A DNA stretch of 39,108 bases from Candidatus Peribacteraceae bacterium. GTDB lineage: Bacteria > Patescibacteriota > Gracilibacteria > Peribacterales > Peribacteraceae. Of the stretch, positions 152 through 20,089 are shown piece after piece. Every line of letters begins with the position of its first letter. Position 1 is the first letter of the stretch. The notes under the pieces are model-generated. The model ran no database searches, was not told where the DNA came from, and was given only the letters and a program-made list of their open reading frames with translations. Both the position numbers and the translations under genes were made by a program. Where the stretch lies: positions 1-39,108 of the forward strand of contig JAQTSD010000010.1 in the NCBI GenBank assembly GCA_028711445.1. Reading direction: 5' to 3'.

Positions 152-3100
152 TCACTCCTTCACGGTCACCAGCTCTCCCGCCGTCTGCCCGAATGTCTCC
201 GGGAAGTACATCTCGAAGGCACGGGCGGGACGTAAGTGATAGGTCCCCGGTGTCGTCGCGCGGGCAAGATAGTGGTACTGATAGACGCCTGCGGGGAGAG
301 AGTCGGCGAAGAGGAAGACAGAGTCATCGCGGAACTCTCGGTGATTGAAACGCCACAAACCGTTCTCCCAATAATCGGGGCTCCAAGAATCATTCTCGGC
401 GAGCGAGCCGAGCAGGTTCTGCTGGGAAGTCTTGAGGGAGACATCGATGGCTTCCAACCCGGCTGGCAGCGGACTCTCCACGGCGACGAAGTTGCGATCC
501 TCCGGCACGGTGATGGTCAGCGTGACGACGTAGGTCCCGCCGACAGTGACGGATTCTTTGGACCCTGGCGCGGGCGCCATTTCACGCAGAATCGAGATGC
601 CTTCCTCCGCCGGCGGCAAGTCATCGGCGGTGTAGAAGTATTTCAGAAGCAGGTCATAGTAGAGCCGGCCTTTGCCTTCCTTTCCGACTTTCACGGAGTT
701 CTCCGCACCGCGGTTGAGATCCGCAAGGGGGACCGACGCCTCCTTTTGGCTGAGGATATTCTCTTTGCCAACCGTCCAGTCGAGAATCTTCGTTCCGTTC
801 ACTTCGATGCCAGCCGCATAGGAGGCATCGAGTTCTTTCGTCTCCTTCAGGAAGTCCGTGAGCGCGAGGAGGCTGTAGACGGTGGATTGCGTCGTGTCCC
901 AGTGGCCGTCTTTGCGGGAATTGAGCATGTAGCGCACGACATTGGGGATGAGAACGTTATCGGGTTCGATGCGTACGAGAGCGGAGAGGACAAGGGCGGT
1001 GGTGCGGTCGTTCGTATTCATGAACATCCAATAGGCGCGCTCTTCCGCTTCTTCGAAGTGCGTGCCGCGGCTATCCACTTTTGCGGCATTCTCGATTTCA
1101 TGGAGCAGGGTTGTGGATTTGGAGGAGCCAGCGATCTGGTAAGCGAGAGCGAGCTGGGCGTGCGCGAAGACAGGGAGATCCTTGCGCTGATCGTAGAGAT
1201 TACTCAGCAGACTCATGTCGATCTTGCCGCCGTCCGCAAGAGTAAAGAGGATGTCGGCGCGAGCGGCAAGGCTCAAGTGCGAAACCGGATGATGGAGAAC
1301 GGCAGTGAGGTACTCGCGGGTTCTCCCCATGACGTTTGCGTCGACACTGAAGCCCGCATGCTCGGCCGTTTGCATGCCGAAGAGGATGTATGACGAGAGA
1401 GTGGGGAAGCTTTCCGTGCTCTCCTGCCAGTAACCGAATCCTCCGTCAGCACGTTGGAACATATAGAGGCGCTCCAGGCCGGCAGTGACGATATCATCCA
1501 GTTTCTTTGAGTCCACGATGCGGAAGGCGTCGAAGCCCTGCAGGGTGGAGAGGGCGACGCTTGGGAGGAAACTGGACATCGTCTGCTCCGCGCATCCGTA
1601 TGGGTACTGCAGAAGATAGTCGAGGCCCGAGGGAAGATAGGTGGCCATGGACGGGGAGATCGTGACGGAGAGGGAACCGTCTGAGGCATCCTTTGCCGAC
1701 GGCGCGATGACCTTCTCCTCCGCGATCGATTCCGTCACGCTGGTCGTAGCGACGGTTTGCGGGGTGCCGAACACGTACACGGGGATGCTTTCCTCCACTT
1801 CGTCGCGCGCTCCGTCGCCCTCTGCGCGGAAGATGAAGACGGCTTTATTCGTTCGATCAATGTGGACAGGGAAGAGGATCTTGCCCTGCTGTTTCGGGGC
1901 GATCGTGATGTTCTTCGAAGCCCCTCCGTCCGCCGAGAAGCCGGAGCCGGTGAGTGAGACAGTGAAGGATTGGGTTTGCGGAAGGAAGTTGTGAACGATG
2001 GCACCGATGGTTACCGCATCACCGACCACTGCGAAGCGCGGGCGTACCGGGCGGACGATGACACTCTTGGTTTCTAAAATGGTCCTAGCTGCTGCACCGA
2101 AGAGGTGATCTTTTGTATGACCGATTGCGAGTAGATGCCATGTCGTGAGGTTGTCGGGAAGTGTGAATGTCACAGTAGCCTGCCCTTTCTCATTCGTGTC
2201 GATGATAGGATTCCAATAGGCTGTATCCTTGAAGTTTCCGCGCTTGCGCATCTCCAGATCGTCACCGCCACCGCCCTTGGATCCGGGCTTGAAACGTTCG
2301 AGGAGTCTTGTGAGCATTTGCGAGGTGACGACACCGAGGCCGCGTCGCCCGTAGAACACTTCGACAAGACGGGGCATCTCGAATCCTGTGAGATCAAGCA
2401 CACTCATATCCACAGCGCCGAGTGAGAGTTCCGCGCGTGCAGGCGCCCCCTTCGAGTCCGTTGCCGTGAGAGTGACTACAACCTGTTCTCCGGGCAGGTA
2501 TTGTTCCTTGTCCGTCGAGACGGCGATAGACAGGGCTTTGCTCTTCGTCTCGATATTCAGGCGGGCGTAACCGATCTTGAAGGCAGGGACGCCGGTATCC
2601 AATCCGTTCTCGTCGAATGTCTCTCCGATGCGCGGCTTTACGATGACGACGGAGACGTAAGCCGTCGGCAGGAGATCGGCGGTGATCGGCACTTCGATCG
2701 ACTGCGCAGCGCTCTCAATATCGATCACTTTCTTCGTCAGGATGTTTTCCCGTTCCACAGTGACGAGAGCCTTCACGCCTTTGCCCTGGAAAGGCGATTT
2801 GATGAGGAGCTTCGCCGTGTCTCCGACGGAATACTCAGGTTTGTCCGGCAGGATATCGATGCGGTCATTATTTGACCGCGGCCAGTTCACATAGGTATCC
2901 GACCAGGCGAACACCGATGTGCCGGCCTTTGACTCGCGTCCGCTGTCATCACTTGCGGATGCGACAATTCTGAACGATCCGCCTGCGTCGATGATCACGG
3001 GAACAGTCGTCTTGCCATTGTTTTCAGTCTTCGCGGACAATTCTTTGAGGAAGGTGTCCTGCGGGGTAGAGTCGTAGTAGTACTCACCGTCCACGCCTTT

Positions 3101-6100
3101 CTTACGGATAGTATTCCATTTTCGTTCGAAGACTTGCAGAGTGACGGAACGATTGGGCAGCACTGTGCCATCCGGCTTCACAGTAACGATGGAGATATTA
3201 GCAGCTTTGCCGGGCGTCACGACGTAGTCATCGGTGCGTACGCCCACGTAGAGATCAGCCTTGTGAACGGGGACGGAGATACGATTGCTCACGACTTGGT
3301 TGTTCTCGTCGGTGATGTCCGCTTCGATGGTGTAGACCTGACTCACGCCCTTCGTATCGAGGTTTACGGGGATGGAAACGGTCAAGAGACCCGTTGCATC
3401 CAAAGTGCCTTCGCCGGAGGCGACGTTCTCCGTTGTGCGCATGCATTCCCACCAGCACCAGCTGTCTTCGAGGGCGAAGGAGTACCAACCGTCAGTAAAC
3501 CTGTTGAAGAAGTAATCCGTCGTCTGTGCGCGCCAGCTGACGTGAGCGGAAGACATCGGGGCTCCGAAGTAGTACGAACCGGCGATATCTGCCCGGATCG
3601 TGTCACCGTTGAAATATTCCGATTGTGCCGTTGTCAGCTCTACCTTGTACTCTGGTTTGCGGTACGCCAATACAGAGAACATCGTATTCATGAAGCTGTT
3701 GGAGATGTCGGCATCGGGAGTGACGGTGGCTGAAAGGAAGTAGTCGCCGAGCGCTGCTTGAGCATCGATGGGGAAAGTGTCCGAGAAACTTCCGAATGTG
3801 GAGAAGGGAAGTGATTTGTTGTAGATCTCGTTGCCATTGGGGTCTTGCACCCTTACATTCACCGAGCGGTTCTGATCGGGGAGTTCAAACGTGCCGTCCC
3901 ATGTAAGCATGCGCACGATTCCTTTGAAGTTCACAGAATCACCTACGCGGTAGAGCGGCCGCTCCGTGTAGAGGTGACCGAAAACCCGCTGGGAACCTGC
4001 CGTGGTATAACGGAAGTCCATCATGCCGACGGAATCGAAGTTCCAAGGTCGGATACCGTCGTTCCACTGATTGCTCACAAAAGCCATGTCATCCCCTTTG
4101 GTGGCGGTAACCCAGATTTCCGGTTCCGATTCAGCTCTGAAGGATTCGAACGCTTTGAGGTCTATTGCTGTTTCGAAGAAGCCCTGTGCATCCGTTGAGC
4201 CGGTGAGCACCGACTTACCAGTGAGAGAGTGGAACGAGATAGCAGCTCCTTTTACGGGTTCCCCGGTTCGTAGATCTGTGGCCCAGACGAGCGCGTGATC
4301 GCCCGAGTGCTTGAGGGTGAGACCAATGTTTGTCAGTGCGAAGTACTGCGGGAGGATCGCCGGCTTCTTATTGTAGTCGTTGCGGAATTCCGGAGCGCGG
4401 ACAGTGAGGGCATAGATGCCGGGAGGAAGAGTCCTCCCCAGTTTCTTCTCCACGTCGAACGGTTCGATGACTCCTTCGTTCTCTTTCGCCTGCACGGGGA
4501 TCGACCACTGTTGATAATCCTTCCTGCCTTGAAGGTCGGTCAATCCGCTCTCGGAGGAGTAGCGCAGAGAGAGGTGGGAGGAGAGGAATTCATCGATGCT
4601 CAAGGCAGCGAAGGCGACATCGAGACGGCTGACGTTCACCGCGCTCAAGTAGTAAATCGGCGGCTTACCTCGCTCGAAAATGCCGAAAGTCCCCTTGGAG
4701 TCGATGGAAACGGACGGGGCCAGAGGGGCAGTCTTGAAGGTAAAAATGAAAGGTTCTTTGAGATGCTGGCCGAAAATATCAGTCGCCGCCGTTCCGACTG
4801 TCACGGAGTACTCCGTGCTCGGTGCGAGTGCAGGGGAGACTTCCACGGTGCGGTTATCCGTCCACGGTTGCGGGTCGAACACTGTTTCCTCCCAGGCTTT
4901 TACGGTCGGCGAGATCGTGATGGCTTTCTTCAGAGAGCCGCTCTCGACGGGATTGGAAAAATTAACCTTGATACTACCATTCATCGTATCGAGCCATCCG
5001 GAGACAGAGAGCGCACCGACCGTTTGGAACGAGAGCGAAGAGCCGGAGCCTATGGGAAGATCACCCTGTGCAGCTTTCAAGTCGCTCCCAATGGACAGTG
5101 TGTATGCGGTTTGGAATTGAAGCGGTTTGCTTGGGATGACGATAATCGTCGTGCGATCTTCCACCTTCTTGCCATCCTTCAGCTCTTTTGTACCGAACAA
5201 GAGCGAAGCGATTGCGATATCCTGCATGGGGGCTTCAGGTGCAGGAGCGATGGCTTTTGCATCGTCTATTGTAGGAGGGTCGGCAATGGAACGAGCGGTT
5301 AGCTTCAGCTGCGGTTTCGCCGTCTGGAGGTTCATCTCCTGATTGAAGGTGAGAGAGAGAACGGTGGTCGGTCCAGCCAATTGGTATCCTTCCAATGGCG
5401 ATGAATCGATCATCGTTGGACGAATCGTTTCGAAGCTCCAGGAGAAGTCTTGCTCCGTCGCATCGCCGGCGACGGTCGTGATGCCATCGGGGACATGCAC
5501 AGTGTATTTCGTGGAGGGGACGAGTCCAATTGTTGGAATGAACTCCACTGCGATTGTGGAGAGCCATCGCCACCTTCCTTGGACGGATGGCGTGATCGTC
5601 ACCGGCCAGTTGGCCATGCGTGTACTCGCCGCATCGCCTTGCACTTGTGTCAGAGGGATAATCGGACGGTCGAAGACAATCGTGATTTTGGATTGTGGCG
5701 GAATGCCGACGGCATTCGGGTTTGGGAGACGTGCAGCGACCTTCGCCGGGCCAGCCACCTCGAAAGTGAAATCGAGTGACCGACCGAGAGCAGATCCGTC
5801 GCTCTGCAAAGCGGTTGGACTCAGATGGAAGGTGTATGTCTCGCCGTTTACCAGTTTCTCGCTTGGTTGGAAGATGAGGATATCGTCATTCCAGGACCAC
5901 GAGCCCGTCATTCCGTGCGGAATCGACATGGATTGTTCGACACTGACATGATCCATGAGAGCAGGAAAACTGAAATGCAAGCTCGACGTCGTTGTTACCT
6001 TCTGGCGTTGACCGAAGTCCATGATCCCGTGCTGCGATTCCTCCCAGAAAAGCAGTCCACCGATAGAGAGAATGCCAAGTAAGACGATTGCAATGATCAA

Positions 6101-6160
6101 GCGGGTAATAGGAGCTGTTGCTTTGGATGATGGAGTGGCAGTGGAGAGAGACTTAGCCAT
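152..6160 (-). CDS. Alpha-2-macroglobulin family protein with thioester
   Basis: The product has 2002 residues. Bacterial A2Ms trap attacking proteases: cleavage of a bait region triggers collapse and a reactive thioester couples to the protease. The N-terminus has a short cytoplasmic head and one membrane helix (about residues 18-39), with no lipobox cysteine, so it is membrane-anchored rather than a lipoprotein like E. coli YfhM. The first ~480 residues hold several Big_5/Ig-like repeats. A macroglobulin domain follows (PLYRVGDSVNFKG). The thioester motif GCAEQ is intact, with Cys near residue 1523, followed by the alpha-helical thioester-domain region. It lies 80 bases after the cupredoxin-like gene and before a possible pbpC. 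The 18 bases before the ATG are pyrimidine-rich (CTCTTTTCCCCGTGTTCT) with no Shine-Dalgarno. Family assignment is firm; the protease-trap role is inferred from the family. Confidence 0.95.
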   Translation of the reverse strand: MAKSLSTATPSSKATAPITRLIIAIVLLGILSIGGLLFWEESQHGIMDFGQRQKVTTTSSLHFSFPALMDHVSVEQSMSIPHGMTGSWSWNDDILIFQPSEKLVNGETYTFHLSPTALQSDGSALGRSLDFTFEVAGPAKVAARLPNPNAVGIPPQSKITIVFDRPIIPLTQVQGDAASTRMANWPVTITPSVQGRWRWLSTIAVEFIPTIGLVPSTKYTVHVPDGITTVAGDATEQDFSWSFETIRPTMIDSSPLEGYQLAGPTTVLSLTFNQEMNLQTAKPQLKLTARSIADPPTIDDAKAIAPAPEAPMQDIAIASLLFGTKELKDGKKVEDRTTIIVIPSKPLQFQTAYTLSIGSDLKAAQGDLPIGSGSSLSFQTVGALSVSGWLDTMNGSIKVNFSNPVESGSLKKAITISPTVKAWEETVFDPQPWTDNRTVEVSPALAPSTEYSVTVGTAATDIFGQHLKEPFIFTFKTAPLAPSVSIDSKGTFGIFERGKPPIYYLSAVNVSRLDVAFAALSIDEFLSSHLSLRYSSESGLTDLQGRKDYQQWSIPVQAKENEGVIEPFDVEKKLGRTLPPGIYALTVRAPEFRNDYNKKPAILPQYFALTNIGLTLKHSGDHALVWATDLRTGEPVKGAAISFHSLTGKSVLTGSTDAQGFFETAIDLKAFESFRAESEPEIWVTATKGDDMAFVSNQWNDGIRPWNFDSVGMMDFRYTTAGSQRVFGHLYTERPLYRVGDSVNFKGIVRMLTWDGTFELPDQNRSVNVRVQDPNGNEIYNKSLPFSTFGSFSDTFPIDAQAALGDYFLSATVTPDADISNSFMNTMFSVLAYRKPEYKVELTTAQSEYFNGDTIRADIAGSYYFGAPMSSAHVSWRAQTTDYFFNRFTDGWYSFALEDSWCWWECMRTTENVASGEGTLDATGLLTVSIPVNLDTKGVSQVYTIEADITDENNQVVSNRISVPVHKADLYVGVRTDDYVVTPGKAANISIVTVKPDGTVLPNRSVTLQVFERKWNTIRKKGVDGEYYYDSTPQDTFLKELSAKTENNGKTTVPVIIDAGGSFRIVASASDDSGRESKAGTSVFAWSDTYVNWPRSNNDRIDILPDKPEYSVGDTAKLLIKSPFQGKGVKALVTVERENILTKKVIDIESAAQSIEVPITADLLPTAYVSVVIVKPRIGETFDENGLDTGVPAFKIGYARLNIETKSKALSIAVSTDKEQYLPGEQVVVTLTATDSKGAPARAELSLGAVDMSVLDLTGFEMPRLVEVFYGRRGLGVVTSQMLTRLLERFKPGSKGGGGDDLEMRKRGNFKDTAYWNPIIDTNEKGQATVTFTLPDNLTTWHLLAIGHTKDHLFGAAARTILETKSVIVRPVRPRFAVVGDAVTIGAIVHNFLPQTQSFTVSLTGSGFSADGGASKNITIAPKQQGKILFPVHIDRTNKAVFIFRAEGDGARDEVEESIPVYVFGTPQTVATTSVTESIAEEKVIAPSAKDASDGSLSVTISPSMATYLPSGLDYLLQYPYGCAEQTMSSFLPSVALSTLQGFDAFRIVDSKKLDDIVTAGLERLYMFQRADGGFGYWQESTESFPTLSSYILFGMQTAEHAGFSVDANVMGRTREYLTAVLHHPVSHLSLAARADILFTLADGGKIDMSLLSNLYDQRKDLPVFAHAQLALAYQIAGSSKSTTLLHEIENAAKVDSRGTHFEEAEERAYWMFMNTNDRTTALVLSALVRIEPDNVLIPNVVRYMLNSRKDGHWDTTQSTVYSLLALTDFLKETKELDASYAAGIEVNGTKILDWTVGKENILSQKEASVPLADLNRGAENSVKVGKEGKGRLYYDLLLKYFYTADDLPPAEEGISILREMAPAPGSKESVTVGGTYVVTLTITVPEDRNFVAVESPLPAGLEAIDVSLKTSQQNLLGSLAENDSWSPDYWENGLWRFNHREFRDDSVFLFADSLPAGVYQYHYLARATTPGTYHLRPARAFEMYFPETFGQTAGELVTVKE

Positions 6161-6240: not shown

Positions 6241-7410
6241 TTACGCTGCTTTCCGTGCCCGTGCGAAACACTTACGCGTTGCCCAAGCGAAGGTGGTAAT
6301 ACTCAATCCTGCGATGATCCAGATATTCGGACCAGTCTGTGGCTGGCTGATCGGGACATACGTGCGCGGTGCGCCTGCATGCGTGACATCGCTTTCCGGG
6401 ATCACTGATCCAACCAATCGATTGCTTCCCACCGTATTCGGGTTGGTGGGGATGCCGGGGATATATGTGCCGACATCCGTCGGTGCGGGGAGGACATCTT
6501 CCGGTGGAGTCGTGGTGGCGGGTATATTGGAGGATGATTGCGGTGTCGCGGGAGATGGAACCGGGGCTGCTATCAGTGCAGCGGATGATCTGGAAGAAGC
6601 CGTCAAAGTTGCGGGTGGGGGGAGTGCGGGCATTGCGAGGGGAGCGGGCACTGCACCGGCACTGCTGGCCGGTACAGCCGATTCCTCATCCAAGAGATCT
6701 TCCTCAAGAAAGGTATCATCTTCGAAGAGGTCTGTCTCATCCAAGAGCTCATCGTCTTCGAAATCATCATCCAGAAACTCATCATCCAGAAACTCATCAT
6801 CCAGAAACTCATCATCTTCGAGGAATTCGTCGTCCTCTTCGGTGTCTGTGTCTTCTGCTATGCCATTGACACCATAAGCTGCGGCGGAATTATTCGTTGA
6901 TGAGCTTTCTGAGGATGGCCCCGTCACCGTGACAATACCTTTGAATGCGGGGGTCGTGATGGAGGTGTAGATGTATGTCCCGGGTTGCACGTCTGTGGTG
7001 ATCGCGAAGGTCGCATTGTCACCCTGAAAGATGTTTGGTGTATAGAGACAGTTGTTCTTGGCACAGAGATCCTTGGATTCGAGGATTTGAGGTACGGATT
7101 GTTCATTGATCCATTTAATGGTGGATCCCTGTGGGGCAGTCACTTCGACGGGGTCGACACCCTTGGTAGTGATGCGGATGGTGATGGTCGAGCTGACGAG
7201 CTGGCCTGTAAGACGTTCAAGCCCCGCATAGAAGAAGCCGCTCAAGAGAACGGCAAGTGCGATACCAGCGAGAGCCGCGGGTTTGCGCGATATAGTGTGC
7301 GCATTTTGCGGCAGTACAGCCAGATGCTGCGCTGGCTGCTCGGAGGCAGGACGCACCGGGACAGGTGTCTCTTCGTCGGTTTGCCAGTATGGATGCAGAT
7401 CGTCACTCAT
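6241..7410 (-). CDS. Degenerate cupredoxin-like surface protein with acidic repeat region and LPXTG-like C-terminus
   Basis: The product has 389 residues. The order is: cytoplasmic head (1-43), membrane helix (44-62), plastocyanin-like domain (about 72-164), Asp/Glu-rich tract with EFLDD repeats (186-245), Pro/Ala/Ser linker (246-355), QPQTG (356-360), hydrophobic helix (362-376) and a basic RKCFARARK tail. The last three form a typical sortase cell-wall sorting signal with Q for L. The cupredoxin fold is recognisable from IKWINEQSVPQ and PGTYIYTSITTPAFKG. At the positions of the four copper ligands it has Gln108, Ser150, Thr153 and Phe156, so it should not bind copper in the usual way. Its ATG overlaps the end of the cohesin gene by 8 bases (ATGAGTGA), suggesting coupled translation. 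The partner or ligand is unknown. Confidence 0.8.
   Translation of the reverse strand: MSDDLHPYWQTDEETPVPVRPASEQPAQHLAVLPQNAHTISRKPAALAGIALAVLLSGFFYAGLERLTGQLVSSTITIRITTKGVDPVEVTAPQGSTIKWINEQSVPQILESKDLCAKNNCLYTPNIFQGDNATFAITTDVQPGTYIYTSITTPAFKGIVTVTGPSSESSSTNNSAAAYGVNGIAEDTDTEEDDEFLEDDEFLDDEFLDDEFLDDDFEDDELLDETDLFEDDTFLEEDLLDEESAVPASSAGAVPAPLAMPALPPPATLTASSRSSAALIAAPVPSPATPQSSSNIPATTTPPEDVLPAPTDVGTYIPGIPTNPNTVGSNRLVGSVIPESDVTHAGAPRTYVPISQPQTGPNIWIIAGLSITTFAWATRKCFARARKAA
6766..6810 (-). repeat. Three perfect 15-bp tandem repeats encoding EFLDD
   Basis: The + strand unit ATCATCCAGAAACTC is repeated three times without mismatch (6766, 6781, 6796) inside the acidic tract of the cupredoxin-like gene. 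Degenerate copies flank it. The unit is a multiple of three, so gain or loss would change the length of the acidic stalk without a frameshift. Confidence 0.9.
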
Positions 7411-9040
7411 GCGAGGGTGGAGCGACCGTCACGGTAAGTTGGCGGCGCGAAGCGAACGTAGTGCCGATGACTGCGGAACAAAGCAGTAGGAGGATGATAG
7501 TCGTTGACATGCCGGTTTCGCCGGGTACGGCTCCTCCATTGCCATTACCTGTTCCCAGAGGATTCGTTTTTAATTCTCTGAGGACCTGTCCATTGAGTGA
7601 TAGAGGAGCGGTGGAAGTGGTTGGTTCACCGATAGACACGGCCACTTCCTGGCTAAAGGCGCTCTCTTCGTTTGCTGTGGAGACTGCGCGGATGGCAAAG
7701 TAATACGTTGTCTTCGCAGGGAGATCATGAATAGCAAGACTGTGGATTTCTTTGGCCACGGTCTTCCGCTGGATGTACCGACCGCTCGTCGTACCATAGT
7801 AGATGTTATAGGCCTGAAGGACGGAGGATTGCAGTGCATCCCACGCCAGGAATACCGAGGTGTCCTTCGTCGTGAGACGTAGATTTCGCACCTGGAGCAG
7901 CGAGAAGGCGGAGCCGCCTGTCTGTTCTCCCGCGATTGGTTCGGTTGTGCCGTCGGAGGGTGGGGGAGTGGGTTCGGTGGCAGATGCTTGGCAGATACCG
8001 TTCATACAAATGCCACTCGAACATTCGCCGCCGTATTGACATGGTGATCCGTTCGGCTTTGTTTTTGCATGGCAGGCGCCTTGGTCACAGTTGCCGCTTG
8101 CACACTCATTGGAGGTTTGACAGGTGCTTCCGTCAGGAAGATTTCCTCCTTCGGAAGGAGCGCCAGTGGCACACGTTCCGTTCACACAACGCCCGCTTGG
8201 ACACTGCGCATCAGTCGTGCACATGGTTGCACCATCGCCATCTCCTGGAGGAGTGACTCCGGCGGCACACGCACCATTTACACAGCTGCCGCTGAAACAG
8301 TCAGTATTCTGTGTGCAGACTTCCCCCGTATGGGAACCGAAGATGACATGTAAAGATGTCGGGTCGGCACCCATGGCGGACTCTCCGTCTGGCGATGATG
8401 CGTTAACCTTCTTTAAGAAAGTGTGTCCGCTTGGTTGTATGTCATAGAAGCTCAAAATCGTTCCTACCGGAGGGGCCTTCAGTACGCGGAAGATAATGCG
8501 TGCAATTGGCACAGGATTCGCGCTCGGTTCCTGTCCTGATGTGGACTGTACGTCGATCATGACGTAACCCTTTGCAGTATCGAAATCCTTTTCGCCGGGT
8601 GTGATTTGCGGGAATGCCGAATCTATTTCAATACTCACTCCTTCAAGGATAGTAGGGTCATAAGAAATCCATGCGCGTGCGCGTTGGATCTTGTTCCCTT
8701 CCGGATTATTCGCCACGAGGTCGATGTCGAGCGTGTCACCGACTTTCATGACAGAGGTCTTGAGGCTTTGGGGGTTTTCCACTGGATAGGAGTAGCACAC
8801 GCCGGATCCTATTTGCACGATAGGGTCGGGGTGTGGCACTTCGCCGAAAATTCCTGCTTGTGAAGCGGGAGCCTGCTCGCAATGTGGCCGGACGGTGAAC
8901 GTCGTGCCTGTCGAGCCAGCTGTGGGCGCAGAAACTTCCTGCGCATACGCAGCAGTCGGCTGTAAGACCATCGTAATCATCGCGATTGCAAGGATGTGTG
9001 GGAGAGAGGTTTGCCGGAAGAGAGCGGAGAAGAAGAGCAT
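7403..9040 (-). CDS. Secreted cohesin-domain protein with Cys-rich repeats, FN3 domain and sortase-like tail
   Basis: The product has 545 residues. A signal peptide (1-33, ending AYA) is followed by a cohesin-like domain at about 97-236 (VGDTLDIDLVANN, YDPTILEGVSIEID and PIARIIFRVLKAP are typical strands). Four Cys-rich repeats of the form C-x5-C-x4-C-x4-C follow (242-258, 274-290, 307-323, 334-350). Next come a fibronectin type III domain (about 385-471), VPGETG (505-510), a hydrophobic helix (511-530) and basic SRRQ. VPGETG plus helix plus Arg resembles a sortase signal, although the tail after it is long. Cohesins bind dockerins, and the adjacent upstream gene encodes a dockerin-like protein 12 bases away. 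It is therefore likely a wall- or membrane-displayed scaffold or adhesin. The cohesin call is by eye; substrate specificity is unknown. Confidence 0.8.
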   Translation of the reverse strand: MLFFSALFRQTSLPHILAIAMITMVLQPTAAYAQEVSAPTAGSTGTTFTVRPHCEQAPASQAGIFGEVPHPDPIVQIGSGVCYSYPVENPQSLKTSVMKVGDTLDIDLVANNPEGNKIQRARAWISYDPTILEGVSIEIDSAFPQITPGEKDFDTAKGYVMIDVQSTSGQEPSANPVPIARIIFRVLKAPPVGTILSFYDIQPSGHTFLKKVNASSPDGESAMGADPTSLHVIFGSHTGEVCTQNTDCFSGSCVNGACAAGVTPPGDGDGATMCTTDAQCPSGRCVNGTCATGAPSEGGNLPDGSTCQTSNECASGNCDQGACHAKTKPNGSPCQYGGECSSGICMNGICQASATEPTPPPSDGTTEPIAGEQTGGSAFSLLQVRNLRLTTKDTSVFLAWDALQSSVLQAYNIYYGTTSGRYIQRKTVAKEIHSLAIHDLPAKTTYYFAIRAVSTANEESAFSQEVAVSIGEPTTSTAPLSLNGQVLRELKTNPLGTGNGNGGAVPGETGMSTTIILLLLCSAVIGTTFASRRQLTVTVAPPSHE

Positions 9041-9052
9041 GGAGTGCGGAGA

Positions 9053-9382
9053 TCAGCGTGTGGGGAGCGCAGCAAGGAGACGCAGGGCGTCATCCACCGT
9101 AAACGCACCGTTTTGGTCCGGGTCAGCTCTTAGTTCTTCGGGAGTCGCTTCACGATATCCCTGTGCGATTTCGAGGATAATGCGAATGTCTTGAAGATCG
9201 ACTGCGCCATCATCGTTGATATCGCCTGTCAGATCCGCCGAACCGGCTTCGATGAGCGTGATGGGTTGCACCTCTCCCGCTGAACGGATCCCTACAGCGA
9301 AGCAGCTGACGATGCTCGCCAGTCCGAGGACGAAGATGCGCGTATTCTTGTGGGAAAAGAGTTGGCGGATGTATGTGAACAT
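9053..9382 (-). CDS. Small secreted or anchored dockerin type I protein
   Basis: The product has 109 residues. A basic head and hydrophobic segment (about 15-32) form a signal peptide or anchor. The rest is almost entirely a type I dockerin: two F-hand calcium sites, DINDDGAVDLQD (54-65; ligands D54, N56, D58, D62, D65) and DPDQNGAFTVDD (87-98; D87, D89, N91, T95, D98), each followed by a Leu/Ile-rich helix. Length and spacing fit the ~60-residue dockerin fold. There is no catalytic or binding module, so the protein is a dockerin with an export signal. It is the first gene of the surface series and the cohesin gene follows after 12 bases. A strong promoter at 9391-9419 places transcription initiation at or within a base or two of its ATG, so the mRNA should be leaderless. 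Confidence 0.85.
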   Translation of the reverse strand: MFTYIRQLFSHKNTRIFVLGLASIVSCFAVGIRSAGEVQPITLIEAGSADLTGDINDDGAVDLQDIRIILEIAQGYREATPEELRADPDQNGAFTVDDALRLLAALPTR

Positions 9383-9390
9383 TTCTCAAT

Positions 9391-9419
9391 ATTATAGGCC
9401 GAAAAGCGTTTTTTCTCAA
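9391..9419 (-). promoter_or_regulatory. Promoter of the surface series (leaderless)
   Basis: On the minus strand TTGAGA (9419-9414), a 17-base spacer and TATAAT (9396-9391) form a near-consensus sigma-70 promoter. Only 8 bases separate the -10 box from the dockerin ATG, so the predicted transcript starts essentially at the start codon. Confidence 0.75.
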
Positions 9420-14810: not shown

Positions 14811-14971
14811 CCCCGTGCCCTCGGAGGGCTCACGGGAGCTGCGATCGTTGCGTTGCATCATGTCCGCGAAAGAGTAGACGAGGGGAGGGGAGGACGCAAA
14901 TGAAAAATCCTCCATTAGCTTCGTGACATGGATTCATACGTTCGTTGTTACCACGGGGTTCTCCTGTTACG

Positions 14972-15862
14972 ATGGCACTGTTCCCTTTCACTCTCATGTA
15001 CTTTGTTTTTTGCTGTGGTCTGATCTCCGGCTTTCTTGCAATTGCAGCTCCTGTACCTGTGCATGCTGCCTCCATGGATGATTTTAGGAGTGATGTCGAG
15101 CTTTTCAAGAATGAAGTCGAAACTTCCTTACAGGAGAGCACCGATCAGGTGCTTGATCGAGCGGCCGAACAATCGAAGAACCTTTTTCCTGATCGCTCAG
15201 GCGAAGTGGGGACCGGAGCGAGTAAACGCATGCTCGAGGAGGATCCTGCCTTCCTTACCGTTCGTGTCGAAGATGTCCCCGTAGTTCTACGTGATGTTCC
15301 CAAGGGGGAGTGGTTCGCGCCGTACGTGCGGGACACAGCCGCGCGCGGCATTCTTGTGGGGTACCGCGATGAAATGGGATTGCCTACGGGCAAATTCGGA
15401 TCGGCAGACAATCTCACCATCGAACAACTTGCGAAGATCGCCGTCGTCGTGGCAGGAATCGACACATCTGCATGCGTCGGGTCAGGGACCCTGAAAAATT
15501 CCTCTGCAGTCGATCGCTGGTCGACTCCGTACATTCTCTGTGCGGAGACGAACGGATGGGCGGTGTTTAGCGATGGATCCGTCCCTGTCCGCAAACTCGC
15601 ATCCCGTAGCGAGGTGGTAGTTACGCTTTTGCAGGCTTTCTTTATTCCCGTTTCGGGTGAGACATCGCAGCGTTTCAGCGATGTTGGCGCTTCTACGGAA
15701 TTCGCTGCAGCCATCGAGCGTGCTGCGCAGGATGGCATCATCACTGGTTATACGGATGTCCAAGGGAATCCGACGGCCATGTTCGGCCCTGCTGATCCGG
15801 TTCTTCGTGCGGAGATGGCCAAGATCGTCTCGCTCGCATTGCAATTGTACGGCGAGGACTAG
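14972..15862 (+). CDS. Secreted SLH-domain protein
   Basis: The product has 296 residues. Signal peptide 1-33 (cleavage after VHAA) is followed by a charged helical stretch (about 35-85) and S-layer homology repeats. These are one at about 115-165 (FAPYVRDTAARGILVGYRD), a degenerate one at about 180-225, and a clear one at about 235-290 (FSDVGASTEFAAAIERAAQD, then GIITGYTD). SLH domains bind secondary cell-wall polymers and attach proteins to a monoderm wall. There is no other effector domain, so the SLH block itself may be the functional part. ATG 14972 is chosen over an upstream TTG because it directly precedes the hydrophobic signal sequence. It is divergent from carB and convergent with the EamA gene. 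Confidence 0.85.
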   Translation: MALFPFTLMYFVFCCGLISGFLAIAAPVPVHAASMDDFRSDVELFKNEVETSLQESTDQVLDRAAEQSKNLFPDRSGEVGTGASKRMLEEDPAFLTVRVEDVPVVLRDVPKGEWFAPYVRDTAARGILVGYRDEMGLPTGKFGSADNLTIEQLAKIAVVVAGIDTSACVGSGTLKNSSAVDRWSTPYILCAETNGWAVFSDGSVPVRKLASRSEVVVTLLQAFFIPVSGETSQRFSDVGASTEFAAAIERAAQDGIITGYTDVQGNPTAMFGPADPVLRAEMAKIVSLALQLYGED

Positions 15863-16925: not shown

Positions 16926-17069
16926 TAATATTTAAATTTCAACCATACGCCGTTTGGCTCCAAAGAATCTTGCGATTCAAACGATAGTTCTGCTGTTTCG
17001 TACATCTTTTGTCTATTGCATGCGTAGTCAAGAACTGTGCATACTGCATCGATTTCTTCCCCATCTCCC

Positions 17070-18497
17070 ATGATGTTCTCTCGTTTCTCGCGTGCCTCTC
17101 TCACGCTCTTTTTAGCGGGTACAGCTTGCGGCATTGGAGCTACAGCCGTCGCGACCAGTCTGGGGTCTGCTGTCTTCGATGACGTTCGTACGGGTTCTTT
17201 TTACGACGCCGCTGTTGGGGAAATGTATGCCGCAGGCGTTATCCATGGTTATCAGGACGGGCGTTTCGGTCCGGATGACTACGTTACTCGCGGTCAGCTT
17301 GCAGTTATGTTCCAGCGTTTAAAAGCAGATCTGACAGGCAATGTTTCCTCTTCGTCCTCTCGCTCTTCTTCGAGTTCAAGCTCCTCTTCTTCTGTGGAAA
17401 CGACGCAAAATCCTGCCGGTACCATCCGGTTTACTACGGAAACGTACACTGGTAAGGAGAATGGCGCGGCAGCGTCCGTGACTGTTATCAGGGCGGGGGG
17501 GGTGCAGGGGGCTGTGACCGTGGATTACGCAACATCCGACGGGACAGCGGAGGCCAATACGGATTACGAGCCGAATTCCGGTACATTGCATTTCTCTGAC
17601 AAACAGAGCACAGCAGCCTTTCCAGTGAAGCTCCTCAACAATACGCTGACAGACGGCTCCCGGACGATCACTCTCACATTGAGCAATGTAAAAGGCGGCG
17701 CTGCGCTCGGTACGCCTATCACCGCCACGCTCACCATCACCGACGATGAGTCGCCGACAAGTTCCTCCAGTTCTTCCACATCGAGCTCAGCATCGGATGG
17801 TTCTTCGACGGGAGGCGGCACATTCTCCTTCGGGGCTTCGGCGTACGAGGTGGCAGAAAATGCTGGTCAGATCAACGTGACTGTCGTTCGTACCAGTAGC
17901 ACGTCCGGACAGGCAACCGTACAGTACTCTCTGACCAATGGGACAGCATTGGCAACACAACACTTCAATGCTTCGGGCAGCTCACTCACGTTCTTGAATG
18001 GTGAATCGAGCAAAACATTCCCTGTATTGATAACGGATAATGAGACTATCAACGGAAATAAGACATTCACCGTGACGCTCACGAGCACGAATGCCGGTGC
18101 CTCCCTCGGCGATGCGAAGAGTGCAGTCGTCACGATCGCAGATGATGAGATCATGGCGGCGGGAAGTGGGTCGCTCAAGTTTGGGAAATCGACATTCACC
18201 GCAGGATCGTCATCATCCGATACGAAGGTATTGGTTACCGTGCAGCGGGTCGGCGGCACGAATGGGACGGTCAAGGTGTCGTTTGCCACTTATGATGTCA
18301 CTGCGGTGGCCGGTCTCGACTACACGTCCGCGCAAGGGACGCTTACCTTTGTGGATGACGAATCGGTGAAGACGATCTCCATTCCCCTCATCGAGAGTTC
18401 GCGCAACAAGTCGGGGACGAAGTTCGGTGTGCGTATCACATCTCTGGAAGGCTCGACTATCACGTCTCCCACGGAGACGACTGTCGAATTCGATTGA
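17070..18497 (+). CDS. Secreted SLH and Calx-beta repeat protein
   Basis: The product has 475 residues. It has an N-terminal signal peptide (about 1-34), a single SLH domain (35-88: FDDVRTGSFYDAAVGEMYAA, then GVIHGYQDGRFGPDDYVTRG), a poly-Ser linker (92-108), Calx-beta domain 1 (about 117-232), a second Ser-rich linker (about 235-262) and Calx-beta domains 2 (263-358) and 3 (365-475). Calx-beta domains bind calcium and are common in adhesins; SLH anchors to wall polymer. It is likely a calcium-dependent surface adhesin or layer protein. The ATG at 17070 (or the next codon, 17073) follows a pyrimidine-rich leader (TTTCTTCCCCATCTCCC). A rho-independent terminator follows at 18520. Confidence 0.88.
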   Translation: MMFSRFSRASLTLFLAGTACGIGATAVATSLGSAVFDDVRTGSFYDAAVGEMYAAGVIHGYQDGRFGPDDYVTRGQLAVMFQRLKADLTGNVSSSSSRSSSSSSSSSSVETTQNPAGTIRFTTETYTGKENGAAASVTVIRAGGVQGAVTVDYATSDGTAEANTDYEPNSGTLHFSDKQSTAAFPVKLLNNTLTDGSRTITLTLSNVKGGAALGTPITATLTITDDESPTSSSSSSTSSSASDGSSTGGGTFSFGASAYEVAENAGQINVTVVRTSSTSGQATVQYSLTNGTALATQHFNASGSSLTFLNGESSKTFPVLITDNETINGNKTFTVTLTSTNAGASLGDAKSAVVTIADDEIMAAGSGSLKFGKSTFTAGSSSSDTKVLVTVQRVGGTNGTVKVSFATYDVTAVAGLDYTSAQGTLTFVDDESVKTISIPLIESSRNKSGTKFGVRITSLEGSTITSPTETTVEFD

Positions 18498-18880: not shown

Positions 18881-20089
18881 TTAGATCGGTAACGCCTCCG
18901 GCCGTGAAGCTGGCAGGACGTGCTTGCCCGATTCTCCCGGCTTGAGTGCGATGCCTGTCGACGGGTCCACTTCTTCCGCTGTAAGGATAAGGCGATGGAG
19001 GGCGGTGCCGATAGGCGTGCAGGTCATGAGGGTGCCTAGTTTTTTATTCGACGGTTGGTCGAGCACCGAGACATTTGTCGGACTCACCTCCTCTTTCGTA
19101 CGGATGACGTAGCGGTGCTTGTCGCCGCCGAAGTACACCCAGTAATCGTCACCAGGTGCAAGTTCACTCAGACGCGCAAAGACCGTCTTATATTTTCCCG
19201 GTGCCCATGGATAGTAGGAGCTGTGGCCGGTGACGAAGAAGTTGCCCGCCTGGCCAGGTTTAGCTGTTCCTGGATAGTGCACGACGCCGTCTTGCAGCGC
19301 CATCTGGATATCCTTTTCGACTTGTGCCCAGTCTTCCTTCAGCAGGGCGTCGTACGGTGGTGTGGCGATCGGTACGTTGAGGTTTAGTTTCGGGACGATG
19401 AGCCGATTCTCCGGCGGGCCGACCGGCGGCAAGAAACTCAAGAGGTCGCCCATGTTTCCCCCGGCTACCGAGAGAGACGGCGCGTTGGCGAGATGGTCTT
19501 TCAGCTTGCTATCTACGGATTCACTGAGAGCTTGTACGGAGCGAGCGTGCTCGATAGGGTTGATGCGCTCGGAGACGATATTCCAGAAACTTTCATAGTT
19601 CAAAGTGACGAAGAGAGCAACGAAGATGGCCGCGAACGTTCCACCGAACCGCACAGTATCGAGAAGGAAGAGCGTCACGCGTGTGTACTGCTTTGGCTTC
19701 TGGGAAGGCGAGACGATCCACACTGGTTGTGTGAGAAACGCCCATAGCGTGCATCCGGCACTGGCGAGCGCGGTGCCAGCGGAACGAAGTGAGTTTCCGA
19801 GAGTGTGGAAGCTGAAGCGATACTGGTCGGTGCACTCTTCGAGCAGCTCCCCCGAAATCTGCCGGATAGTCCATCGGACCTGTGCGAAGATCGAATGTAC
19901 GGGCTTCGGGGGCCTCTTCATCTCCGCGGGGAGCGGCTCATCCTCGATCGTCCATTCAGCTCTCAGAAGTCTCAAGCCGGGGACATCTTCGGTTTCCGGA
20001 GCGGTCACGACATCGTCATCCTCCGGGAGGATGATCGTCCCGTCTGGATCGACGTCGGCGCGGTGGCGGCGCGGGTGGAGTGGTATCAC
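18881..20089 (-). CDS. Sortase with long cytoplasmic N-terminal extension
   Basis: The frame encodes 402 residues. Sortases are membrane transpeptidases that cut LPXTG-type signals and attach proteins to the cell wall. The catalytic triad is visible: His289 (VTGHSSYYPW), Cys357 (TLMTCTPIG) and Arg366 (TALHRLIL). One membrane helix lies at about 137-163 with the catalytic domain outside. About 136 residues precede the helix, far longer than the usual few residues, acidic then basic, with no domain I recognise. The GTG at 20089 is uncertain: a TATAAT box at 20098-20093 lies only 3 bases from it, so translation may begin downstream, for example at ATG codon 57. Candidate substrates in the window are the cupredoxin-like and cohesin proteins. 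Confidence 0.88.
   Translation of the reverse strand: MIPLHPRRHRADVDPDGTIILPEDDDVVTAPETEDVPGLRLLRAEWTIEDEPLPAEMKRPPKPVHSIFAQVRWTIRQISGELLEECTDQYRFSFHTLGNSLRSAGTALASAGCTLWAFLTQPVWIVSPSQKPKQYTRVTLFLLDTVRFGGTFAAIFVALFVTLNYESFWNIVSERINPIEHARSVQALSESVDSKLKDHLANAPSLSVAGGNMGDLLSFLPPVGPPENRLIVPKLNLNVPIATPPYDALLKEDWAQVEKDIQMALQDGVVHYPGTAKPGQAGNFFVTGHSSYYPWAPGKYKTVFARLSELAPGDDYWVYFGGDKHRYVIRTKEEVSPTNVSVLDQPSNKKLGTLMTCTPIGTALHRLILTAEEVDPSTGIALKPGESGKHVLPASRPEALPI

Follow-up and report, generated by a model that had tools for sequence, protein, structure and literature searches.

What does a bacterium do with a cohesin and a dockerin that have no enzyme to carry? The cohesin-dockerin interaction is among the strongest noncovalent protein locks and is known mostly from cellulose degradation. 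To our knowledge, how the cell surface of bacteria of the candidate phyla radiation (CPR) is built and held together is largely unexplained. The question is raised by a 39,108-nucleotide (nt) stretch of contig JAQTSD010000010.1 (hereafter, the window) from a Candidatus Peribacteraceae bacterium (Patescibacteria, CPR), whose genome is 1.25 Mb and 99.7% complete. A first-pass annotation of the window, made from its letters alone, described a CPR-like genome, an assignment in keeping with this affiliation and with the relatives that carry the pair, which are Ca. Peribacteraceae/Peribacteria metagenome-assembled genomes (MAGs). It placed a short dockerin gene (DOC) 12 bases upstream of a gene for a cohesin-like secreted protein (COH), and these coordinates were confirmed. 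In nearly all members of the family, the cohesin-dockerin coupling appears to consist of one plug and one socket, enzyme-free and encoded in one predicted operon, which includes a third gene (CUP). The three open reading frames (ORFs) are as follows.

9053..9382, minus strand: DOC, ORF of 109 amino acids (aa), predicted exported standalone dockerin
7403..9040, minus strand: COH, ORF of 545 aa, secreted and C-terminally anchored (predicted)
6241..7410, minus strand: CUP, ORF of 389 aa, cupredoxin-fold protein, with an 8-nt overlap with the end of COH

The pair recurs throughout the family. Searches of 74 Ca. Peribacteraceae genomes detected a cohesin in 65 of them and the DOC protein in 69, and the number with a standalone DOC stays at about 69 after one genome with a non-standalone match (G029) is dropped and one recognized by the profile only (G046) is added. 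Judged by coordinates alone, 57 genomes have DOC immediately ahead of a cohesin recognized by Pfam, and the true number of pairs is higher, since some COH proteins of the family escape Pfam (e.g., that of G049). In the 42 named loci that were compared for gene order, DOC and COH occupy the same place in 41, with DOC missing in L105 only. Almost all of these loci share the gene order carB-greA-orf133-holA(reverse)-DOC-COH-CUP, with variable genes beyond it. The gaps between DOC and COH are mostly 3 to 26 nt, and COH and CUP mostly overlap or nearly touch. Because the order is kept, the first gap is short, and the second boundary is overlapping or nearly so, the conserved unit appears to be the three genes DOC-COH-CUP, predicted to form one transcription unit. 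Comparison with the sister genome gives dN/dS ratios of 0.096 for DOC, 0.105 for COH, and 0.115 for CUP, as expected of genes under purifying selection. The synteny across the family strongly supports the cassette as a functional unit. Among 288 genomes sampled across the class, full-length members of the DOC family occur in Ca. Peribacteraceae only; the other matches are dockerin modules, which almost always belong to larger proteins. One contig deposited as Kiritimatiellales (L086) bears all three genes of the Peribacteraceae cassette in their usual gene context, the mark of a mislabelled or mixed MAG.

The small protein has the anatomy of a dockerin behind an export signal.

DOC residues 14-32 (approximate): export helix (19-residue Kyte-Doolittle maximum, mean 1.95)
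DOC residues 31-47: conserved segment GI[QR][ST]AGEVQPxxLIEAG (alignment)
DOC residues 54-65 and 87-98: two F-hands (alignment)

By itself, the window's DOC scores 20.7 bits against PF00404 (Dockerin_1), for which the curated cutoff is 22.9, whereas many members of its family score above that cutoff and 28 of 35 match Dockerin_1 at an E value of ≤0.01. A profile built from the 35 sequences matched solved dockerins in the PDB, the best being 2y3n_B (E value of 4e-6). Five positions are invariant in the 35 aligned relatives (D54, D65, D87, T95, and D98), four of which are F-hand Ca2+ ligands; other loop positions are restricted, to D, N, or S at 58 and to D or N at 91, and the nonligand residues L70, E71, G75, and Y76 are nearly invariant. 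These features support the assignment of DOC as a real dockerin with two intact F-hand Ca2+ loops, as first proposed, and no catalytic domain accompanies it. An OsmC (PF02566) match was below its cutoff, occurred in 2 of the 35 members, and was rejected. Upstream of the loops, the segment G-I-[QR]-[ST]-A-G-[ED]-V-Q-P-x-x-L-I-E-A-G has S or T at position 34 in all relatives aligned, and A46 is invariant. Its [ST]-x-G motif fits a signal peptidase site, so the helix may be cleaved and DOC released, or it may equally be kept as an anchor.

The neighboring protein is composed, in order, of a signal peptide, an RPHC strand, the cohesin, a Cys-repeat stalk, an FN3 domain, and a VPGETG-transmembrane (TM)-SRRQ tail.

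8447..8758, minus strand: cohesin domain of COH, extent of the Pfam match (the model shows a longer domain)
7985..8323, minus strand: stalk of COH, four C-x5-C-x4-C-x4-C repeats (sequence)
7643..7891, minus strand: FN3 of COH, residues 384-466 (PF00041, 32.6 bits; cutoff, 25)
7403..7530, minus strand: C-terminal tail of COH, PGETG + TM + SRRQ (sequence, alignment)

All of the parts listed in the first-pass annotation (cohesin-like domain, four cysteine repeats, FN3, and sortase-like tail) are present. PF00963 matches residues 95-197 at 28.1 bits (cutoff, 24.1) and at 31.3 bits in a genome-wide search. In the AlphaFold2 (AF2) model, the predicted local distance difference test score exceeds 90 across the cohesin domain, and the top Foldseek matches of the model are all cohesins. 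Its best structural alignment by VIA-align is with the cohesin 4uyq_A (Z score of 14.8; root mean square deviation of 2.3 over 136 residues); entries 1 to 47 of the ranking are all cohesins, and the first other surface domain follows at a Z score of 10.2. Profile and model together support a cohesin fold in COH. When the cohesin profile was searched against PDB sequences, no solved cohesin matched at an E value of 0.01, suggesting that the COH cohesin is a remote branch of the cohesins. The remainder of the protein is unevenly conserved: in place of the Cys repeats, relatives carry Ser- or Glu-rich sequence, and the FN3 domain (YNVYYGTTxGxYIQRK) is the most conserved part of COH.

The third protein, CUP, consists of an N-terminal HPxWxxTD segment, a TM helix, a cupredoxin-fold domain, an acidic linker, and a QPxTG-TM-basic tail. 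Cupredoxin_1 matches the window's CUP at 23.0 bits (cutoff, 27), and 13 of 23 relatives match at an E value of ≤0.01, bearing out the cupredoxin-like protein that had been noticed downstream of the pair. The type 1 copper ligands His...Cys-x-x-His-x-x-Met are absent from the CUP alignment, the Cys, His, and Met positions being occupied by Ser, Thr, or other residues; a role in copper binding or electron transfer was rejected on this ground. The HPxWxxTDxE segment that precedes the TM helix, in which W9 is invariant among aligned relatives, is presumably cytoplasmic.

Both COH and CUP end in LPxTG-like features, PGETG in COH (a sortase-like VPGETG, with no literal LPxTG) and QPxTG in CUP, each followed by a TM helix and a basic tail. 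The genome encodes three clear sortases, of which one lies inside the window and on the same contig as the cassette.

18881..20089, minus strand: sortase (PF04203, 79.2 bits)

This enzyme is a candidate for processing the COH and CUP tails. The idea that PGETG is a sorting signal used throughout the genome was rejected: COH is the sole real C-terminal case, and a second match to the codon pattern falls outside any credible gene.

Do DOC and COH bind each other? In the genome, no cohesin but that of COH exceeds the cutoff, four weak matches scoring far below it, and there is no dockerin candidate besides DOC. Since the genome is 99.7% complete, neither protein has any evident partner in it other than its neighbor. 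Our preferred reading, to which we give about an even chance, is that DOC, COH, and CUP form a small enzyme-free surface assembly in which DOC docks one-to-one on COH of the same cell. DOC would be exported through its N-terminal hydrophobic helix, then held as an anchor or cut at [ST]-x-G, and would fold on Ca2+. The folded dockerin would dock on the single cohesin near the N terminus of COH, which would itself be retained through the PGETG-TM-basic tail at its C terminus, perhaps after sortase processing, with the stalk and FN3 pointing outward. The lock would thereby staple COH in the envelope, beside CUP. So construed, the pair would be a cohesin-dockerin coupling cut down to plug and socket, a structural staple with no enzyme scaffold.

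Several results weigh against this reading. A DOC-COH chain was modelled with AF2 as an in-frame tether in which a residue stands in for the stop codon, a modelling device that makes no claim on the code of the organism. Both domains folded well, and the predicted template modelling (pTM) score was 0.60 for the window pair and 0.66 for the L090 pair. By our own decomposition, the window pair would be expected to score about 0.50 to 0.56 if undocked and 0.59 to 0.68 if well docked, and the L090 pair 0.60 to 0.66 if undocked and 0.70 to 0.80 if well docked, such that the former score leans weakly toward docking and the latter does not. Given the lack of a sequence match between the cohesin profile and solved cohesins, the docking interface of COH may also have diverged. 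Moreover, genus g21 (genomes G038 and G039; L105, L146, and L147) lacks DOC and retains COH and CUP at the same locus, with no other dockerin detected in G038 or G039, and G029, a complete genome, is without a standalone DOC.

Some of these same results favor an alternative in which there is no binding: DOC would bind Ca2+ as a small protein of the envelope, the cohesin of COH would serve as a generic Ig-like surface domain, and the two genes would be cotranscribed since both act in the envelope. The retention of COH without DOC in g21 and the unsettled tethered pTM scores (0.60 and 0.66) fit this alternative, as do the matches of PrgB Ig-like and CLIPPER, which are noncohesin surface domains, to the COH model at Z scores of about 10. 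Cohesins, however, match clearly higher (Z scores of 12 to 14.8), and the dockerin adjoins the cohesin in most of the 40 genera of the family, a pairing that recurs in other families of Patescibacteria. We regard the absence of binding as unlikely.

Alternatively, DOC might be cleaved and released, and the soluble 73-residue dockerin would act as a cap, chaperone, or regulator in the COH socket until exchanged, with its EVQPxxLIEAG extension binding a second partner. In nearly all relatives, [ST]34-x-[GA]36 followed by an acidic residue obeys the -3/-1 rule of signal peptidase, and the segment right after the putative cleavage site is strongly conserved (A46 being invariant), although of low confidence in the AF2 model. 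What such an exchange lacks is a second dockerin, none being present in the genome. Extra dockerin proteins do occur in G016 and G060 (L152, L153, L154, and L161), several of them with LEPR-type N termini, which we take to be typical of Planctomycetes. These proteins at least partly resemble planctomycete contigs; because of the LEPR-type N termini, they are probably contamination and were set aside as cargo. We consider a released and exchangeable DOC quite improbable.

The first-pass annotation had proposed either a surface assembly or a cell-contact device. Export, anchoring, and synteny make the former the best reading, and nothing specific supports the latter, in which COH or DOC would act in trans and stick to other cells. 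General features are compatible with contact: COH has a surface FN3 and a Cys-rich stalk, and epibionts are common among CPR bacteria. In Southlakia epibionticum, a genetically tractable epibiotic saccharibacterium, the dockerin-domain envelope protein SEML1_0315 is essential (PMC10633639), and for exported cysteine-rich proteins of Peribacter, attachment to other cells has been proposed (PMC4736985). Yet near-universal retention at one locus under strong constraint is unlike a host-specific adhesin, and a plug and socket from one operon favor assembly in cis. Because the locus is fixed and conservation is near-universal, a core envelope role fits better, and a contact device seems very doubtful. 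A remnant of a cellulosome-like enzyme scaffold, suggested by the shared domain families, is hardly credible, given that none of the three cassette proteins has a catalytic domain, that no further dockerin or cohesin scores above the cutoff in the genome, that constraint is strong (dN/dS of about 0.1), and that dockerin-bearing enzymes are absent from the complete genomes of the family.

A promoter-like sequence stands directly before the cassette.

9391..9396, minus strand: -10 box, TATAAT, ending 8 nt upstream of the ATG of DOC
9414..9419, minus strand: -35 box, TTGAGA, with 17-nt spacing to the -10 box

A TA[TC]A[ACT]T hexamer occurs 4 to 10 nt before an in-frame DOC start (6 to 10 nt for the in-frame ATG) in 39 of 41 relatives, as opposed to 0.9% of random start codons; the -35 box is less conserved than the -10 box. 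Because a -10-like hexamer lies so close to the DOC start across relatives, the DOC-led mRNA is probably near-leaderless. The near-abutting -10 box is family-wide at DOC, yet it is no general rule for the genes of the window. DOC and COH also share a reading frame, and the DOC stop is TGA, which raised the possibility of a recoded read-through fusion; this was rejected, as relatives mostly use TAA and many of their pairs are out of frame. Together with the family-wide conservation and the recognition of CUP as a cassette gene, the promoter goes beyond what the first-pass annotation had noticed.

The genes around the cassette encode further envelope proteins. A2M (window positions 152-6160) lies beyond CUP and, in the window's genus, is followed by a PBP1C-like transglycosylase/transpeptidase (sister genome, L066:18051-19616), so that the series anticipated by the annotation is recovered. 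Neither is taken as a cassette member, because only 6 of the 42 named loci have A2M close to the cassette. Near the cassette and the sortase lie an SLH and Calx-beta protein (17037-18497) and an SLH protein (14945-15862), consistent with an S-layer envelope.

Similar arrangements exist elsewhere in Patescibacteria. Across 380 genomes of this group, adjacent same-strand dockerin and cohesin genes were found in at least 12 genomes outside Ca. Peribacteraceae (L130 to L145), usually with the dockerin first. At L133, a 104-aa signal-dockerin protein is encoded upstream of a cohesin gene, and at L132, the gene for a 181-aa dockerin protein overlaps a cohesin-TM gene. In sister families of the class (L140 to L144), a gene for an LTD-cohesin-FN3-dockerin protein precedes one for a membrane-anchored cohesin-TM protein; as in Peribacteraceae, the dockerin-bearing gene is directly upstream of the anchored cohesin gene, but the dockerin forms the C-terminal part of a protein of ~500 aa that also has a cohesin and a lamin-tail domain, and the locus is a different one. 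A bolder proposal, which we hold to be improbable in its entirety, is that a lineage-wide cohesin-dockerin coupling builds the envelope of Patescibacteria. Its Peribacteraceae version would be a Ca2+-controlled staple in which a membrane-held, cargo-less dockerin clamps the wall-attached cohesin protein beside CUP, which would run from membrane to wall with its N-terminal segment facing the cytoplasm, the whole forming an essential membrane-to-wall strut.

The literature searched, which included few subscription journals or preprints, yielded no description of a cohesin-dockerin pair from Peribacteria or from other Patescibacteria. The description of five complete Peribacter genomes names a sortase, an S-layer, and cysteine-rich exported proteins, and neither a cohesin nor a dockerin (PMC4736985). 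Compared with cellulosomes (e.g., 4uyq, 1ohz, and 2y3n), the Peribacteraceae pair shares the cohesin fold and the two-F-hand dockerin but has neither a scaffoldin of repeated cohesins nor dockerin-bearing enzymes; with a single cohesin over the cutoff and a single dockerin candidate that has no catalytic domain, a cellulosome was rejected. The noncellulosomal cohesins of Clostridium perfringens (2vo8, 2w1n, and 2jh2) are among the structural matches of the COH cohesin and likewise occur singly, beside FN3 in 2w1n, but those modules join large secreted enzymes, whereas the Peribacteraceae pair is without a catalytic domain.

Close parallels are also known from archaea. We take AF2375/AF2376 of Archaeoglobus fulgidus to be noncellulosomal cohesin-dockerin proteins, with 2xdh as the cohesin structure, which matches the COH cohesin model at a Z score of 13.0 (VIA-align). 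As in Peribacteraceae, neighboring cohesin and dockerin genes are present with no enzyme scaffold, but the A. fulgidus dockerin is part of a larger protein that also contains a cohesin, whereas DOC stands alone behind an export signal and belongs to a cassette that includes a third gene and keeps its place throughout a bacterial family. Both bacteria and archaea are known to have noncellulosomal cohesins and dockerins, and archaeal pairs have been reported to bind (PMC9012536). For the dockerin and cohesin proteins of ANME archaea, a noncellulosomal surface use was also proposed, but these comprise multicohesin and substrate-binding-protein forms and no minimal pair (PMC9012536). With both modules encoded outside any cellulosome, the Peribacteraceae cassette belongs with the noncellulosomal systems, of which it appears to be a previously undescribed form, and it hints that couplings of the cellulosome type help build the cell surface in this family.

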